Shown here in pieces: positions 2,783-24,184 of a stretch of DNA of 35,761 bases. The stretch is taken from the NCBI GenBank assembly GCA_020060805.1, contig JAGUZM010000259.1, positions 1 to 35,761 of the forward strand. Reading direction: 5' to 3'. Position numbers and translations under genes: made by a program. The notes beneath the pieces are model-generated. The model searched no databases, had not been told where the DNA came from, and saw only the letters and a program-made list of their open reading frames with translations. The DNA is from Deltaproteobacteria bacterium (GTDB lineage Bacteria; Desulfobacterota; DSM-4660; Desulfatiglandales; HGW-15). Position 1 is the stretch's first letter; the number at the start of each line of letters is the position of its first letter.

Positions 2783-4042
<1,260 letters not shown>

Positions 4043-6812: not shown

Positions 6813-7730
6813 ATGGTCACTTCTGAAGAATTAGCCGCAACCTCACCCGCACTCGGCGACAAATCCACCACTGGGTCGGAGTCTGCCTCCGGCCGGAATT
6901 GGGACCTTGTCATTCGCCCCCAATCCGGCTGGTTTGATCTGCATCTGAGAGATCTCTGGCGCTATCGCGACCTTATTATGCTTTTCGTGTGGCGGGATTT
7001 TGTAGCCAAGTACAAGCAAACGATCCTGGGGCCATTGTGGTACCTAGTGCAACCTCTGCTCACGATGGTCGTTTTTGTGGTGATTTTCGGAAAGATCGCA
7101 AAGATCCCCACCGACGGTCTCCCTCAGCAGGTTTTCTATCTTTGCGGGATTACCGCCTGGAACTACTTTGCTGAGTGCTTGAACGCGACTTCAGGGACGT
7201 TCATACAAAATGCGGGCATTTTCGGAAAGGTCTATTTTCCTCGGCTGGTGATACCGATCTCAGTCGTGATTTCAGGCTTGATCCGGTTCGGCATCCAGTT
7301 CGCCCTCTTTCTGGCGTTTGCAGTGTACTTCCTTGCAAAGGGTGCTAACGTCCATCCTAATGCCGCGGTACTGCTAACCCCGTACCTAATTTTTCTCATG
7401 GCCGCCCTTGGTATAGGCCTTGGTATCATTATCTCATCCTTGACCACTCGCTTTAGGGACCTCCAGTTTCTGGTTCAATTTGGAGTCCAACTCCTCATGT
7501 ACGGCACCCCAATTGTTTATCCGCTATCGCTGGTCCCTGAGAGATATAAATGGATAGTGGCAGCAAACCCCATGTCTGCCATTGTCGAAAGCTTCCGGTA
7601 TGGCTTTCTCGGTGCTGGCTCCTTCGACCTTGTTCTATTAGCTTACAGCACCACAACAATCTTTGTCATTGTTTTCGTTGGTATACTTCTATTCAATAGG
7701 GTTGAGAAGGGCTTTATGGATACCGTATGA
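6813..7730 (+). CDS. wzm: polysaccharide ABC transporter permease (Wzm-type)
   Basis: DLWRYRDLIMLFVWRDFVAKYKQTILGPLWYLVQPLLTM; multiple hydrophobic segments; ABC-2 family. Confidence 0.95.
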   Translation: MVTSEELAATSPALGDKSTTGSESASGRNWDLVIRPQSGWFDLHLRDLWRYRDLIMLFVWRDFVAKYKQTILGPLWYLVQPLLTMVVFVVIFGKIAKIPTDGLPQQVFYLCGITAWNYFAECLNATSGTFIQNAGIFGKVYFPRLVIPISVVISGLIRFGIQFALFLAFAVYFLAKGANVHPNAAVLLTPYLIFLMAALGIGLGIIISSLTTRFRDLQFLVQFGVQLLMYGTPIVYPLSLVPERYKWIVAANPMSAIVESFRYGFLGAGSFDLVLLAYSTTTIFVIVFVGILLFNRVEKGFMDTV

Positions 7731-9040
7731 GCGAGACTGTCATTCAGATCGACAATCTCTGGAAGAAATACCGTCTCGGCGTTTTGAGCACCCGAGTATT
7801 GGCCCACGATCTGAATCGATGGTGGTGCAGAGTGCGTAGAAAACCGGACCCATATTTAAAGGTCGGCAACCTGCCCGCTGGAGATGTCAATCCGTATGAC
7901 CCGATCGTTGAAAATGCCCCAAATGCACCTTGCGAGACAGCCAGCGATGAAGTCTGGGCGCTTCGAGGCGTCAACCTGAAGGTGAAGGGGGGCGAGGTGC
8001 TGGGCGTTATTGGAAGAAATGGAGCAGGAAAATCCACTCTGCTTAAAATACTTTCCCGGGTAACCTCACCCACTTTCGGCGAGATCCGCATTAAAGGCCG
8101 TGTCGCATCTCTACTTGAAGTGGGGACAGGCTTCCATCCAGAACTCACCGGACGTCAAAACATCTATCTGAACGGTTCGATCCTGGGTATGACCAGGCCT
8201 GAGATTAATAAGAAGCTGGATCAGATAATCGATTTCGCAAATATCCCCAAATACATCGATACTCCTGTCAAGCGGTATTCAAGCGGTATGTATGTCCGTC
8301 TCGCGTTCGCCGTAGCTGCCCATTTAGATCCTGAGATACTTATAATTGATGAGGTACTGGCAGTGGGGGATGCTGGTTTTCAGAAAAAGTGTCTAGGAAA
8401 AATGGAGGACGTTGCTAGACAGGGAAGAGCGGTACTATTTGTGAGTCATAACATGGCGGCCATACAGAACCTATGTAGCAATGGGATTGTCCTAAAAGAG
8501 GGCGGAATAGCTTTTCAGGGCAATGCTTCCGAATCAATTAGTTTTTATCATCGTTCCGTAGTCAGCGGACTTACAGAGGTAGATCTTATCAACCGCAAAG
8601 ACCGATCTGGTACCGGCGCATTGCGCTTTACAAGAATTGTTTTCTTAGATTCTATTTACAGCCCCGTTCATACACTCACCTGTGGAAAGCCTACCAAGAT
8701 AAGGCTACACTACACCACCACAAAGCCCTTGACCAATGTCGCGGCTGCAATTGCTTTTGGGTCACACGCCGGAGAGAACAAGATTTTGCTTTGGACCGAG
8801 TTGCTAAAGGCGAACTACCCGAGTGTTAGCGGAGAGGGTTACTTCGAATGCAACATACCGCGTTTGCCCCTTTTTCCTGGGACTTACCTTATTACACTGT
8901 TCTCGCAATCTGGCCCTGAAATACTGGACTGGATAAGAGAGGCGGACTTGGTTGTGGTAAGGGAAGGCGATTTTTATGGAATTGGTAACCTCATAGGTCC
9001 CGGTCATCAGAGTGTGTTGGTCGAGCATACCTGGAGCTAG
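7727..9040 (+). CDS. wzt: polysaccharide ABC transporter ATPase with C-terminal substrate-binding domain (Wzt-type)
   Basis: GRNGAGKSTLLKIL Walker A; YSSGMYVRLAFAVAAHLDPEILIIDEVLAVGD; extra C-terminal ~170 aa; ATGA overlap with wzm. Confidence 0.95.
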   Translation: MSETVIQIDNLWKKYRLGVLSTRVLAHDLNRWWCRVRRKPDPYLKVGNLPAGDVNPYDPIVENAPNAPCETASDEVWALRGVNLKVKGGEVLGVIGRNGAGKSTLLKILSRVTSPTFGEIRIKGRVASLLEVGTGFHPELTGRQNIYLNGSILGMTRPEINKKLDQIIDFANIPKYIDTPVKRYSSGMYVRLAFAVAAHLDPEILIIDEVLAVGDAGFQKKCLGKMEDVARQGRAVLFVSHNMAAIQNLCSNGIVLKEGGIAFQGNASESISFYHRSVVSGLTEVDLINRKDRSGTGALRFTRIVFLDSIYSPVHTLTCGKPTKIRLHYTTTKPLTNVAAAIAFGSHAGENKILLWTELLKANYPSVSGEGYFECNIPRLPLFPGTYLITLFSQSGPEILDWIREADLVVVREGDFYGIGNLIGPGHQSVLVEHTWS

Positions 9041-16081: not shown

Positions 16082-17257
16082 ATGACGACATTCATTCGCA
16101 TCATCTTCGCGTTCCTGGCTTTTCCGTCTGCTCTGGCATGTCTCACCGCAGATTCCTTTGCACATGAACCTCTATACAGTGAGCGGCCAGGAAAATTGCG
16201 CATACTTGTCGATAAAGTACTGATGCGATCCACCAATTGGATAATGACTGAGGAGCACGTTAAGGAGATAGCAGGGGCCGGTTTCAACGTGGTTTCGCCG
16301 CGCTCAGGCGGAGAGGATCTCAACCGTGTCCGTGAGATCGCCGGATTCGCCCGGAAGTACAATATCAGCTATTTGCCATGGATGAGGGGCTCCCTGGTCG
16401 CTAGGACCGGACCCCGGATGCTCTACGAAAATGGAGTCGAACAGGCAATCTGCAGCCCTGACTCGGACGAACTGTGGCAATGGATGGTGGGACTAATACT
16501 TGAATACGCACGCATCAGCATGCAAATTCCGTCGCTTACAGGGGTGTTTCTTGATTTTGAAAACTATTACCCTCCTCAGAGGCCTGGACATTTGTACTTC
16601 CTGTCTTATGACGATGCCATGATGAGCGCCTATGCCGGTGCCAAGGGTCTCACGCTCCCTCAAATCGAGAAGCCCAATCGATACCGATGGCTCACAAGTC
16701 AAGGTCTTCATCGAGATTTGGAGCTTTTTCAGATAGAAAGATGGAGAATCCGATGCCGCAACTTGAGGCAGAGGGTGGATGCATTTAACCCCAGGTTTCA
16801 GTTCTTCGTCAATCCTGGAAAGGGTACGCCCTTCCTCATCGAGGCCGCTTTCCCAGAATGGTCAACTCCTGAAACTCCGATCATTTTGGCTGATGACATT
16901 ACCTACGGGCGCCCTTCACCTGACACGCCACATAAAGATGCATTGCTGATAAACCAGAGGAAGTTAGCTAATCAGATCAAAAAGGCGCAACAACTGTCAA
17001 TACCCTTCAAATACATCGGTGGGATCGATCCAGTCGTCCGAAATGCGGATCCGGAATTCTCGGCCCGCAACGCCGTGATGATCTCTGAAACAGCGGATGG
17101 TTACTGGGCCTTCTACGAGGGCCCCAAGCTGGGCAAAGACCATTCAACTTACTTTGACTGGTTCACTAAGGCTAATTTCGCCATCGAAAGGAATGATTTC
17201 CGGTTTTGGTCCGAAGACAGGGTGACCCCCGACTTTAGTACGAGTTTCCCCATGTAG
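16082..17257 (+). CDS. secreted putative glycoside-hydrolase-like (TIM-barrel) protein
   Basis: N-terminal signal-peptide-like segment; GFNVVSPRSGGEDLNRVREIAGFARKYNISYLPWMRG; GVFLDFENYYP. Confidence 0.55.
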   Translation: MTTFIRIIFAFLAFPSALACLTADSFAHEPLYSERPGKLRILVDKVLMRSTNWIMTEEHVKEIAGAGFNVVSPRSGGEDLNRVREIAGFARKYNISYLPWMRGSLVARTGPRMLYENGVEQAICSPDSDELWQWMVGLILEYARISMQIPSLTGVFLDFENYYPPQRPGHLYFLSYDDAMMSAYAGAKGLTLPQIEKPNRYRWLTSQGLHRDLELFQIERWRIRCRNLRQRVDAFNPRFQFFVNPGKGTPFLIEAAFPEWSTPETPIILADDITYGRPSPDTPHKDALLINQRKLANQIKKAQQLSIPFKYIGGIDPVVRNADPEFSARNAVMISETADGYWAFYEGPKLGKDHSTYFDWFTKANFAIERNDFRFWSEDRVTPDFSTSFPM

Positions 17258-18464: not shown

Positions 18465-19538
18465 ATGATATCGGAGCAGCTTACGAGTCAGGCGAAAAAC
18501 CATACGTGCTTAGGCATATGCGTCCCGACTGTTCGCCAACCCCAGATTTCGAAGTTTCTGCAGGAATGGTTTTCACACTGGTCCAGGGATGACCAGCTTC
18601 CCTATGACATCAATATTTTCGTCCACGAGGATAACCCTCAGCCCAGGTTCGACATGGGCCGATCCGCCCATGTCGTAGTCACTCACACTTCTCATAGAGA
18701 CATCGACCGGGTTCTCGGTCGGAAAGGATGGATCATTTCGCGGGGGTCAGGCGCGTGTCGTAGTTTTCCCATGTACTTGGCCTGGCGGGCTGGATGTGAC
18801 TACATCTTTACACTCGATGACGACTGCTATCCCCTGGAGGATGAACATGAGTCGTTTCTTGATTCCCATTTGGCCGCCTTCAGTCTCGACCGCTGGTTTC
18901 GAACTGCGGATATGCTTGAACCAAGAGGCATACCTTACGGAGATAAAGGGCACTTGCCCGTGCTCCTGAATCATGGGCTATGGACCGGCAACCCTGACTT
19001 GGATGCTCCGACATCCCTTGCAAACAGCAGAAATCCTGTCACGGTCGTAGTACGAGGCACCCGTGAGGTGATACCACCGGGCATGTATTTTCCTTTGTGC
19101 GCCATGAACGTCTGCTATCGCCGGGAGGCAATACCGGCCGCCTACAACCTGATCATGGGTATGGACTATCCCGGATTCGACCGTTTTGATGACATCTGGA
19201 GCGGCTTACTACTGAAACGGATCGCAGACCACCTTGGGTTCTACATTACAAACGGGAAGCCCCTCGTTCACCACCAGATTGCCTCCAATCCGTTTTCCAA
19301 TCTGCGCAAAGAAGCACTTGGAATCCAGTTACACGAAGACTTCTGGAAGCATATCGCCTCGGCAAAACTCGATTTCAGCTGCACCTCCGTGACGTCCTGC
19401 TACCGCCAATTGGCGCACATTGTCCGGGCCTTTCCTCAGGAATTTCCTTCGGCCCCTTGCCCGAGTGGTTACTTCGAACGGCTTGCAGAGGCCATGCTCT
19501 GCTGGCTCTCCCTTTTCGAGTCGTCTGATGGACCCTAG
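18465..19538 (+). CDS. reversibly glycosylated polypeptide / UDP-arabinopyranose mutase-like (GT75-like)
   Basis: CDYIFTLDDDCYPL, RGIPYGDKGHLPVLLNHGLWTGNPDLDAPTSL, PPGMYFPLCAMNVCYRREAI, FDDIWSGLLLKRIADHLGFYI, ASNPFSNLRKEALGI match the plant RGP/UAM motif series. Confidence 0.8.
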   Translation: MISEQLTSQAKNHTCLGICVPTVRQPQISKFLQEWFSHWSRDDQLPYDINIFVHEDNPQPRFDMGRSAHVVVTHTSHRDIDRVLGRKGWIISRGSGACRSFPMYLAWRAGCDYIFTLDDDCYPLEDEHESFLDSHLAAFSLDRWFRTADMLEPRGIPYGDKGHLPVLLNHGLWTGNPDLDAPTSLANSRNPVTVVVRGTREVIPPGMYFPLCAMNVCYRREAIPAAYNLIMGMDYPGFDRFDDIWSGLLLKRIADHLGFYITNGKPLVHHQIASNPFSNLRKEALGIQLHEDFWKHIASAKLDFSCTSVTSCYRQLAHIVRAFPQEFPSAPCPSGYFERLAEAMLCWLSLFESSDGP

Positions 19539-20490
19539 CGGACGTGCACAGGGGATGGTATTTGGGGCTGCTTCACTCCTCGCCACAGCCAAGGCGGCCC
19601 TGCGCAATGCGGTACCGAAGCCCTCGGTTCAATGGTTAAATCTCTATCGTATTCATTTCCATGATTTTCTGCTCGCTCCCCCTGTTCTTGTTTTTCAGAT
19701 GGGCAAGGTTGGATCGCAGACAGTAAGGATATCTCTCATCAGGAGTGGGCATCTTCGTGGACCGGTCTACTCGCCTCACTTCCTTTCGAAGGAAGGGATA
19801 GAGTCGGCACTGCAGTATCACCTTCGGCTCCCTACGCCTTACGTCCCATTTCACCTCAAACGGAGCATCCTTCTAAGGAGAAAGTTTCTTAGGTACAAGG
19901 ATAGGACATCCTGGAAAATCATCTCGTTGGTGAGAGATCCGATCGCCAGAGAAGTGTCCGATTTCTTCACCAACGCACCGTCGGTTCATCCGGAAATGTA
20001 TACTGCATCGGGCAGACTCAACCTGTGTGATGCTCTGTGTTGTCTGGTGGACACGTTACACGCATTTGAGGCGTCCTCCGACTATCTCTGCACATGGTTC
20101 GACAAGGAGATGAAAACCGTTTCCGGCATAGACGTTTACGATTATCCCTTCGATCATGAAAGCGGCTATACGATCATAGACAAGGGAAACATATCCCTTC
20201 TCCTGTTGAGACTGGAGAATCTGAATGACATATTTGAACAGGCGGCTCGGCAATTCTTCCGTCTCGAAGCGGATTTTCTTCTAATTAGGTCAAATTCTTC
20301 ATCAAACCACCCATATTCGGAAATATACAACGATCTGCTCAGCAAAATCGTCGTTCCGAAAGAGACTTGCGAGCGGATATACTCATCTCGGTTCGCAAAG
20401 CATTTCTACAGCTTGAAAATGCGTCAGGCCTTTATGGAAAAGTGGTCCCGTGAATTGCGAACATCCGCATCCACGCCACGCAGAGTGTGA
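19528..20490 (+). CDS. putative capsular-polysaccharide / sulfotransferase-like protein
   Basis: VLVFQMGKVGSQTVRISLIRSG (P-loop/PAPS-like) and WKIISLVRDPIAREVSDFFTN; start overlaps the previous stop by 11 nt. Confidence 0.65.
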   Translation: MDPSGRAQGMVFGAASLLATAKAALRNAVPKPSVQWLNLYRIHFHDFLLAPPVLVFQMGKVGSQTVRISLIRSGHLRGPVYSPHFLSKEGIESALQYHLRLPTPYVPFHLKRSILLRRKFLRYKDRTSWKIISLVRDPIAREVSDFFTNAPSVHPEMYTASGRLNLCDALCCLVDTLHAFEASSDYLCTWFDKEMKTVSGIDVYDYPFDHESGYTIIDKGNISLLLLRLENLNDIFEQAARQFFRLEADFLLIRSNSSSNHPYSEIYNDLLSKIVVPKETCERIYSSRFAKHFYSLKMRQAFMEKWSRELRTSASTPRRV

Positions 20491-21473: not shown

Positions 21474-22625
21474 ATGAGACTTTTTCTGAGCCTACATCCC
21501 TCCGGAAATCGATCGGTGCCGGGAAGTATGACATGGCTTAGGAATCTTTATGAGCCCTTGTGCGACCTCGGACACGATGTGCATCTATTGCGAATCGATT
21601 TAGTAGAGAACGCACTGGGAGGGAGACAAACTGCAGACTTCAGATCAACATTTTCCGAGAAGCTGCTCACCGAATTCAAGCACGAACACAAGAAAAGACC
21701 TTTTGACTTTTTCCTATCCTATTTCAGAGACTCCGATGTCGATCCCTCGTGCATCGATGAGATCAGCAGGGCAGGAGTACCTACCGCGAACTTCTCTTGT
21801 AATAATGTACACCAGTTTTACCTGACGCGCCAGATCGCGCCCCACTTCGACTACAATCTGCACTCCGAAGCAGATGCCGGTGAAAAATTCAAAAAGCTCG
21901 GGGCGAACCCAATTTGGTTTCCTATGGCGGCCAACCCTAAGTACTATCGTCCTCTCGATCTCGAGAAAACCTTGGACGTGTCCTTCATAGGCGGAGGTTA
22001 CGCCAAGAGACCTTTTTACATCTGGGCTCTCCTGCAAAATAATCTTGACATACACGTTTTCGGACCAAACTGGAAGGCTCCTGAGAAAGCAGGCCGGATT
22101 CTGAGGGCTAAACTCGAGCTCTACCGCATTGCCCTTCTCGCGCGTTTAGCGGTTATGGCTGACCCGTCGGAACGCGCCCGGCTGTCATCCCAACTCGCCG
22201 ATATTGATTTCAGATTCAAGCTCGCTTCCGTCTTTCCAAACAACATACATCATCCTGTCAGCGATGACGAAATGATCAGAACCTATAACCAGAGCAAGAT
22301 CAGCCTCGGCTTTCTCGAGGTATACGAAAACCACGATTCTTCCGTCAAATCACTTCAACATATCCATTTGCGCGAATTCGAAGTGCCGATGTGCAGAACC
22401 CTTTATTTCACGAACTACAGCGACGAACTGACCGCATTTTATGAACCCGATAAGGAAGTGGTCGTGTTTAGAAATGAATACGAGTTGATGGATAAACTCA
22501 AGTACTTTTTGGCAAACCCGGAGGAAGCAGAGAAGATAAGGGTCTCCGGTTATAAGCGCGCCCTGGGCTGCCATACTTGCCAGAGGAGAATACACTCCCT
22601 TCTGGATTCCATAGGATTACATTGA
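21474..22625 (+). CDS. CgeB-like glycosyltransferase
   Basis: SWLRNLYEPLCDLGHDV-like N-terminus; HLREFEVPMCRTLYFTNYSDELTAFYEPDKEVVVFRNEYELMDKLKYFLANPEEAEKIR. Confidence 0.8.
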   Translation: MRLFLSLHPSGNRSVPGSMTWLRNLYEPLCDLGHDVHLLRIDLVENALGGRQTADFRSTFSEKLLTEFKHEHKKRPFDFFLSYFRDSDVDPSCIDEISRAGVPTANFSCNNVHQFYLTRQIAPHFDYNLHSEADAGEKFKKLGANPIWFPMAANPKYYRPLDLEKTLDVSFIGGGYAKRPFYIWALLQNNLDIHVFGPNWKAPEKAGRILRAKLELYRIALLARLAVMADPSERARLSSQLADIDFRFKLASVFPNNIHHPVSDDEMIRTYNQSKISLGFLEVYENHDSSVKSLQHIHLREFEVPMCRTLYFTNYSDELTAFYEPDKEVVVFRNEYELMDKLKYFLANPEEAEKIRVSGYKRALGCHTCQRRIHSLLDSIGLH

Positions 22626-24184
22626 AGGGATCGCCCTCGGTGAACAGAGCCACCATCTCACAACGTCTTCTTCCATGGGGATTTATTGCTGTATTTGCCC
22701 TGGTGTTGGCAACGTTTGTGGTTCCCCGAATTGGGAATTTTGTCGATGCGCTGCTTCTGAGGGCTGCCGCCAGCCTTGGCGGTCAAACCAACGTTTATAT
22801 CGCGCTGGCTTTTCTGGCGTTGTCGCCGGTCGCGTTCTTGGTGCTGTTCCGCCTCAAGCCAGTAACCCTGATCACACTGGTTATCGCCTTGCTACCCATT
22901 TTATCGCCGCTCCGGCGGTTTTTCGGCATTTACGCCTACACGGACTGGATGGGAGGGACGCAACTCATCTCTGGTCTCGCCATAATAGCCCCCCTTCTGT
23001 TCATCTATCTTTGCATTTTCCATCCTGTCAGCCCGCAGGTCAGGGGATGGCGCCTGCCCCAATCCAAATGGTTTTACCTGATGCCGATATCGGCTTTAAT
23101 TACACAGCCTTTCTTCTTTTCTCTTCCCCAGGCACTGCGGATTGTCTACGTGCTTACTATGACCCATCTCTTCTGGTACTTGATCGTTGTTGCATATGTT
23201 AATACGATTGAGGATTCGCGAAAGTTATTGTGGGCTATACTGGCCACCACTGTGCTTTCAATCCTGCTTACCGCTTTTACTGCCGGGGACCAGGGAGCGG
23301 CTATTCTCGAACAGCAGAAGTACGCCCGAGTGAAATCCGCCCATATGGGCTCAAGTAATGAGTACGGTGTACTCATGACCTCAACGTTGTGCCTCCTACC
23401 CATACTGCTTTACCGCACAACCAACCTCGGCAAGTGCCTCCTCATGGTTGCACCCGTGATCCTTGGAAAGACGTTGATTGCAACGGGTACGAGGGGGGCT
23501 TATGTCTCTATTCTTCCTATTTTTGGCTATCTCTACCTTTACCGAGTCAGCCCCAAGCGCCTGGCCTTCTTTCTCATGGCTTCCTTTCTGGTGTTACTCC
23601 TCCTATATGACCCGCTGACGTTTTATTTGCAGAGACGGCCGATTACCTTGACGGCCTACGAGGACAGATTCTCAAACTCCATGGCGATTCTAGAGGCCCT
23701 TCTTTCCTGGCCCTACTTTTTTCTGGGATACGGGTTCGGGACCATTCAGACCTTCTGGAATATTCCCGGAGCGTATTATGGCCACGCTGCCCACAACGGC
23801 TACCTCCAGGCATGGATAGAATTGGGGTTCCTGGGCTTTGTCGGATTCCTGATGTGGATATTTATTACTCTCAAAACCGGAGTATGGAAAGCTCTTAGGA
23901 CGCCAGTCTTTGAAGAGAAACTGACCTTATTGGGACTTGTCCTTTCCGTTTGCTGCTGGCTGATACTATTCATATCCACCACGGGCAACTACACTGGAGG
24001 AATAGTTGCTTTATACACCGTACTCACGACTGAACTCGCCCTCATAACCGCACTTACGAAGAAAGCGACTCTTTATGGACACCTTACCCCATCGCCCTCT
24101 TATCAGCATTGTGATGTCTGTATACAACGGCCAAGACTACCTCGCGGAAACGATAGACAGCATACTGGCCCAGACGTTCAGTGA
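22622..24184 (+). CDS. O-antigen ligase/polymerase-like membrane protein
   Basis: Many TM segments; GTRGAYVSILPIFGYL and HAAHNGYLQAWIELGFLGFVGFLMW O-antigen ligase/polymerase motifs. Start uncertain (22577/22622); C-terminal 110 nt overlap the next gene. Confidence 0.85.
   Translation: MKGSPSVNRATISQRLLPWGFIAVFALVLATFVVPRIGNFVDALLLRAAASLGGQTNVYIALAFLALSPVAFLVLFRLKPVTLITLVIALLPILSPLRRFFGIYAYTDWMGGTQLISGLAIIAPLLFIYLCIFHPVSPQVRGWRLPQSKWFYLMPISALITQPFFFSLPQALRIVYVLTMTHLFWYLIVVAYVNTIEDSRKLLWAILATTVLSILLTAFTAGDQGAAILEQQKYARVKSAHMGSSNEYGVLMTSTLCLLPILLYRTTNLGKCLLMVAPVILGKTLIATGTRGAYVSILPIFGYLYLYRVSPKRLAFFLMASFLVLLLLYDPLTFYLQRRPITLTAYEDRFSNSMAILEALLSWPYFFLGYGFGTIQTFWNIPGAYYGHAAHNGYLQAWIELGFLGFVGFLMWIFITLKTGVWKALRTPVFEEKLTLLGLVLSVCCWLILFISTTGNYTGGIVALYTVLTTELALITALTKKATLYGHLTPSPSYQHCDVCIQRPRLPRGNDRQHTGPDVQ

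Follow-up and report, generated by a model that had tools for sequence, protein, structure and literature searches.

A GT75-family protein with an altered sugar pocket in a bacterial surface-polysaccharide cluster: a likely flavin-free NDP-sugar mutase

What might a relative of the plant reversibly glycosylated polypeptides (RGP) and UDP-arabinopyranose mutases (UAM) be doing among the polysaccharide genes of a bacterium? The question is raised by an intact ORF at 18465-19538 (+), with an ATG start and a product of 357 aa, in the window analysed here, that is, the whole stretch of 35,761 nucleotides from a Deltaproteobacteria bacterium. The initial annotation had proposed an RGP/GT75 protein, and the profile search bears this out. 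With hmmscan, the product matched PF03214 (RGP) over nearly the full length (profile 8-339 of 342) at E 2.9e-38, and its score of 132.4 bits exceeds the curated cut-off, which is 23.8 bits. This was its sole significant Pfam domain, the PF03275 domain of Glf being absent, and no NCBIfam model matched. When all PDB chains were searched with phmmer, the only significant solved-structure matches were MtdL, present as four sequence variants (best 9.3e-22), and 8cid, deposited as a UDP-arabinopyranose mutase (2.2e-16); with a four-sequence profile these rose to 6e-35 and 1e-31, respectively. An AlphaFold2 model made from a two-row alignment had a mean pLDDT of 50.5, and its Foldseek matches were weak GT-A ones, none with E < 0.001. 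Judged by the profile and PDB scores, the family match is far above chance resemblance, and the protein almost certainly belongs to GT75.

For residue-level comparison, the window protein was aligned with MtdL residues 80-372 (as printed in the PDB match), 8cid, the relatives found here and a plant RGP sequence, which we take as the plant reference. The reference sequence scores 594.8 bits on PF03214 and contains the plant motifs that the initial annotation had cited; the motifs quoted from the window ORF are all present in its translation. Residues 158, 182, 216, 246 and 91 of the reference sequence are Arg, Asp, Gly, Asp and Ser, in agreement with OsUAM1/AtRGP2 numbering (PMC9937993).

In this alignment, the window protein keeps the catalytic set of the MtdL study, with all features on the + strand. 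The metal- and nucleotide-binding DDD motif (D118-D119-D120, 18816..18824) corresponds to MtdL D109-D111, R154 (18924..18926) to MtdL R159 and the autoglycosylated plant R158, D178 (18996..18998) to MtdL D195, R240-F-D-D243 (19182..19193) to MtdL R257 and the proposed general base D260, and H270 (19272..19274) to H287, which binds Mn in MtdL (PMC9937993). Substitutions at D109, R159, D195, R257 and D260 abolish MtdL activity (PMC9937993). The DDD motif and the first arginine are thus conserved as they had originally been aligned. The replacement of the second plant arginine (R165) by lysine is also real (K161, 18945..18947), but bacterial and archaeal relatives vary among R, K, L, M, T and I at this site, so that K161 is not a special feature, and we rejected it as a sign of a new mechanism.

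The sugar and base pocket is another matter. In the segment S95-G96-A97-C98-R99 (18747..18761), R99 is equivalent to MtdL R90, and S95 and G96 to MtdL S86 and D87, which are Asp and Ser in plants (position roles from PMC9937993). The plant Asp-Ser pair is therefore not present, and neither are the Asp87 and Gln229 of the MtdL/Hyg20 type, where the window protein has Gly96 and Met214; A213-M214 (19101..19106) aligns with MtdL S228-Q229 and with Gly-Met in plants. The position of MtdL T13 is Pro (P21), as in plants, while that of MtdL R289 is Ile (I272), where plants have Lys. Taken together, S95-G96, A213-M214 and I272 fit neither the plant UAM nor the MtdL/Hyg20 pattern. Asp at MtdL position 86 abolishes GDP binding, the MtdL variants D87S and D87N and the AtRGP2 variants S91D and S91Y lose mutase activity, and none of the characterised GT75 members that the same study discusses has Gly at position 87 (PMC9937993). 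Because Gly87 is unlike the characterised members, and changes there kill both activities, the sugar of the window enzyme is probably not that of MtdL or of AtRGP2; the pocket must accommodate a different sugar, unless the activity is impaired.

One alternative is a GT75 homologue without activity, as some RGP5/UAM2-type proteins of plants are; this would be in keeping with the report of plant GT75 members without activity and with the Ile at the position of R289, a phosphate-binding residue of MtdL (PMC9937993). We regard this as highly improbable, since the equivalents of H287 and R257, reported lost in inactive AtRGP5 (PMC9937993), are both kept, and since the genome has only one RGP gene, leaving no second RGP as a partner. 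Alternatively, a GT75-fold transferase might have some job other than ring contraction, such as glycosylation of its own arginine or sugar transfer to an acceptor of the cluster. Plant GT75 members do self-glycosylate, AtRGP2 with UDP-Glc does only that (PMC9937993), and the altered position 87 is consistent with loss of the mutase step. Against a transferase stands the retention of D243, R240 and D178, all residues of the mutase step. In addition, no GT75 member is known to transfer to an acceptor other than itself. A transferase seems to us quite unlikely.

Since the catalytic residues are kept and the sugar pocket is altered, the window protein probably makes a five-membered-ring sugar donor. 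The reading that we prefer, and consider likely, is a flavin-free NDP-sugar pyranose/furanose mutase that acts on a sugar other than arabinose and feeds an exported surface polysaccharide; a working NDP-pyranose mutase of any kind, UDP-arabinose included, would be likelier still. If the mechanism follows that of MtdL, the DDD motif and H270 would hold a divalent metal that binds the diphosphate. R154 would attack the anomeric carbon and form a short-lived sugar-arginine adduct, and D243 would shuttle protons during ring opening and reclosure through O4. The released NDP-furanose could then serve as furanosyl donor for the transferases of the cluster, and the glycan could be exported by its Wzm/Wzt-type transporter.

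The surroundings of the gene suit such a role. Profile matches of its ORFs identify the window as a surface-polysaccharide cluster, with many glycosyltransferases, methyltransferases, DegT aminotransferases, a UDP-GlcNAc 2-epimerase and acetyltransferases. Directly upstream of the GT75 gene is a glycosyltransferase (PF13524, 17274..18440, +), and the next ORF encodes a PF10364 (NKWYS) capsular polysaccharide protein (19420..20490, +) that looks by eye like a sulfotransferase-type P-loop protein; taken at its longest, this ORF begins before the GT75 ORF has ended. Profile matches also placed a polysaccharide exporter, made up of an ABC-2 permease and a Wzt-type ATPase with the Wzt C-terminal domain, at 6813..9040 (+), and a Wzy_C/O-antigen ligase-type membrane protein at 22577..24184 (+). 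A GDP-mannose 4,6-dehydratase (gmd) gene at 2892..4020 (+) is degenerate, with pieces in three + frames and in-frame stops. No furanosyltransferase was identified within the window, and in the literature searched we found no earlier description of GT75 in a surface-polysaccharide cluster of this sort. Two other features of the window deserve mention. The ORF at 16082-17257, second upstream from the GT75 gene and 391 aa long, has a possible signal sequence and matches nothing in Pfam or NCBIfam. At 147-1189, a nucleotidyltransferase-type protein (PF18765) precedes a HepT family toxin, and the two probably form a type VII toxin-antitoxin pair adjoining the polysaccharide genes.

How such a gene came to be in this lineage can be approached from its distribution. 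None of 60 relatives in its own lineage has the window protein, and of the 396 genomes sampled from the phylum just 3 have any RGP match at all, a figure that includes the genome of the window itself. The simplest reading, we infer, is horizontal acquisition together with the polysaccharide cluster. A search of genome contigs with one query protein recovered a single relative, from an Acidobacteria MAG (L008, 54% identity), the nearest that we found. Its gene (L008:7995-9035) has an in-frame TGA exactly at the conserved Cys of the family, and DYD where the family has DDD; at a contig coverage of ~3x, these could reflect error, decay or, though this is unlikely, selenocysteine. A search for 16S in the genome of the window found none, and among the genomes listed the phylum sample does not overlap with the phylum of L008. 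Haloarchaea and additional genomes of the L008 phylum (L031-L037) also yielded relatives, as did a Planctomyces plasmid (L005) and a phage genome of 595 kb (L006). The gene of the uncultured phage (LR756511.1; L006:9992-10927) is a plant-side GT75 gene beside two sulfotransferase-like genes.

In the tree, a 100/100 branch sets MtdL and its kin of the L008 phylum apart from the sequences of plants, L031, Planctomyces, the phage and the window, and the window protein does not group with MtdL. Branching inside the non-MtdL side, including the place of the pair formed by the window and L008 proteins, is not resolved, and constrained trees placing this pair beside the MtdL group (p-AU 0.105) or beside the plants (p-AU 0.09) were not rejected. 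Its motifs ally the window protein with plant UAM, and not with MtdL and Hyg20. The plant-like P21, M214 and ASNP motif, and a place in the tree on the plants' side of the 100/100 branch, would suit a genuine UDP-L-arabinopyranose mutase of the plant type, supplying UDP-L-Araf to the glycan, and the genome has a UDP-glucuronate decarboxylase-type gene (UDP-xylose synthase, 2.2e-130). Yet the phage and Planctomyces relatives keep the plant Asp-Ser pair where the window protein has Ser-Gly, and no UDP-xylose 4-epimerase could be distinguished from the other GalE-type genes of the genome. The check for UDP-arabinose genes thus yielded the decarboxylase-type gene without a separable epimerase, and we think a plant-type mutase unlikely.

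If the non-arabinose mutase reading is followed, the evidence on the sugar itself is mixed. Counting for GDP is S95, equivalent to the MtdL S86 position at which Asp blocks GDP binding, and so is the presence in the genome of gmd and GDP-L-fucose synthase (fcl) genes, adjacent on one small contig and both above NCBIfam cut-offs. The latter is weak evidence for GDP-fucose, since 20 of 61 relatives have fcl. The clustering of relative L031 with a GDP-mannose 3,5-epimerase also counts for GDP, as do the gmd-type and GDP-L-fucose synthase-type genes of the phage genome LR756511.1; the phage enzyme, though, has Asp-Ser despite those genes, which is against GDP or neutral, and the plant-like Pro at the MtdL T13 position argues for UDP. 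In the exopolysaccharide cluster of L031, the epimerase homologue (L039:9129-10190, G468; 5.6e-95) lies ~2 kb downstream of the GT75 gene, pointing to GDP-L-galactose as a candidate substrate in that cluster. For the window enzyme, a GDP-linked substrate is a real possibility, if short of an even one; as a guess, we slightly favour a GDP-linked 6-deoxy or L-sugar, for example GDP-L-fucose, over UDP-L-arabinose. Because the evidence is mixed, we commit to the type of reaction and not to the sugar.

The original proposal of a mutase unrelated to the flavin type that feeds the glycan therefore survives in part. Its class and setting are upheld by the Pfam, PDB and alignment results, by the cluster genes and by the lack of any detected Glf in the genome, whose assembly is ~92% complete. 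Arabinofuranose as the specific product is not supported, given Ser-Gly in place of the plant Asp-Ser at MtdL 86-87 and a GDP-L-fucose pathway alongside the UDP-glucuronate decarboxylase-type gene.

A bolder and tentative suggestion, which we think doubtful on balance, is that there is a third functional type of GT75 mutase, made up of the window protein and the Acidobacteria relative that is 54% identical to it, with Ser/Thr and then Gly at the base/sugar-selecting positions. If true, this type would be neither UDP-arabinose nor MtdL-type, and an NDP-furanose new for GT75 would be built into a bacterial surface glycan. The altered pocket offers a direct test of the residues that set base and sugar choice in GT75, and the protein is a possible source of new NDP-furanose donors. 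The bacterial GT75 enzymes characterised by 2023 numbered only two, each a GDP-sugar mutase from an antibiotic pathway (PMC9937993). The window gene shows that plant-side GT75 proteins occur also in bacterial surface-polysaccharide clusters, and relatives are carried by a huge phage and a Planctomyces plasmid.

The window protein can finally be set beside the known systems. With plant RGP/UAM it shares the Pfam family, the DDD motif, the autoglycosylated Arg, the equivalents of D178, R240, D243 and H270, and the GLW..PD.DAPT, CxMN and ASNP motifs, at 33% identity to the plant reference RGP. It differs in having Ser-Gly for Asp-Ser at MtdL 86-87, Ala for Gly at 228, Lys for the second Arg and Ile for Lys at 289. 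MtdL (A201A pathway) and Hyg20 (hygromycin pathway), the bacterial GDP-L-Gal/GDP-L-Fuc mutases, have the same catalytic set and Ser86 and belong to the metal-dependent, flavin-free GT75 class in which the window protein is predicted to fall. In contrast, identity to MtdL is 30%, the SDNRRN, QNTA and HRR/HPR motifs of the MtdL group are missing, position 87 is Gly and not the Asp of MtdL, and the 100/100 branch lies between. The haloarchaeal proteins named 'alpha-1,4-glucan-protein synthase' share the GT75 family and catalytic set, but are ~30% identical to the window protein, and one that was aligned has His at 87 and Thr at 90. The FAD-dependent UDP-galactopyranose mutase Glf would, if the mutase reading is right, catalyse the same type of reaction, with a fold and cofactor unrelated to those of GT75.
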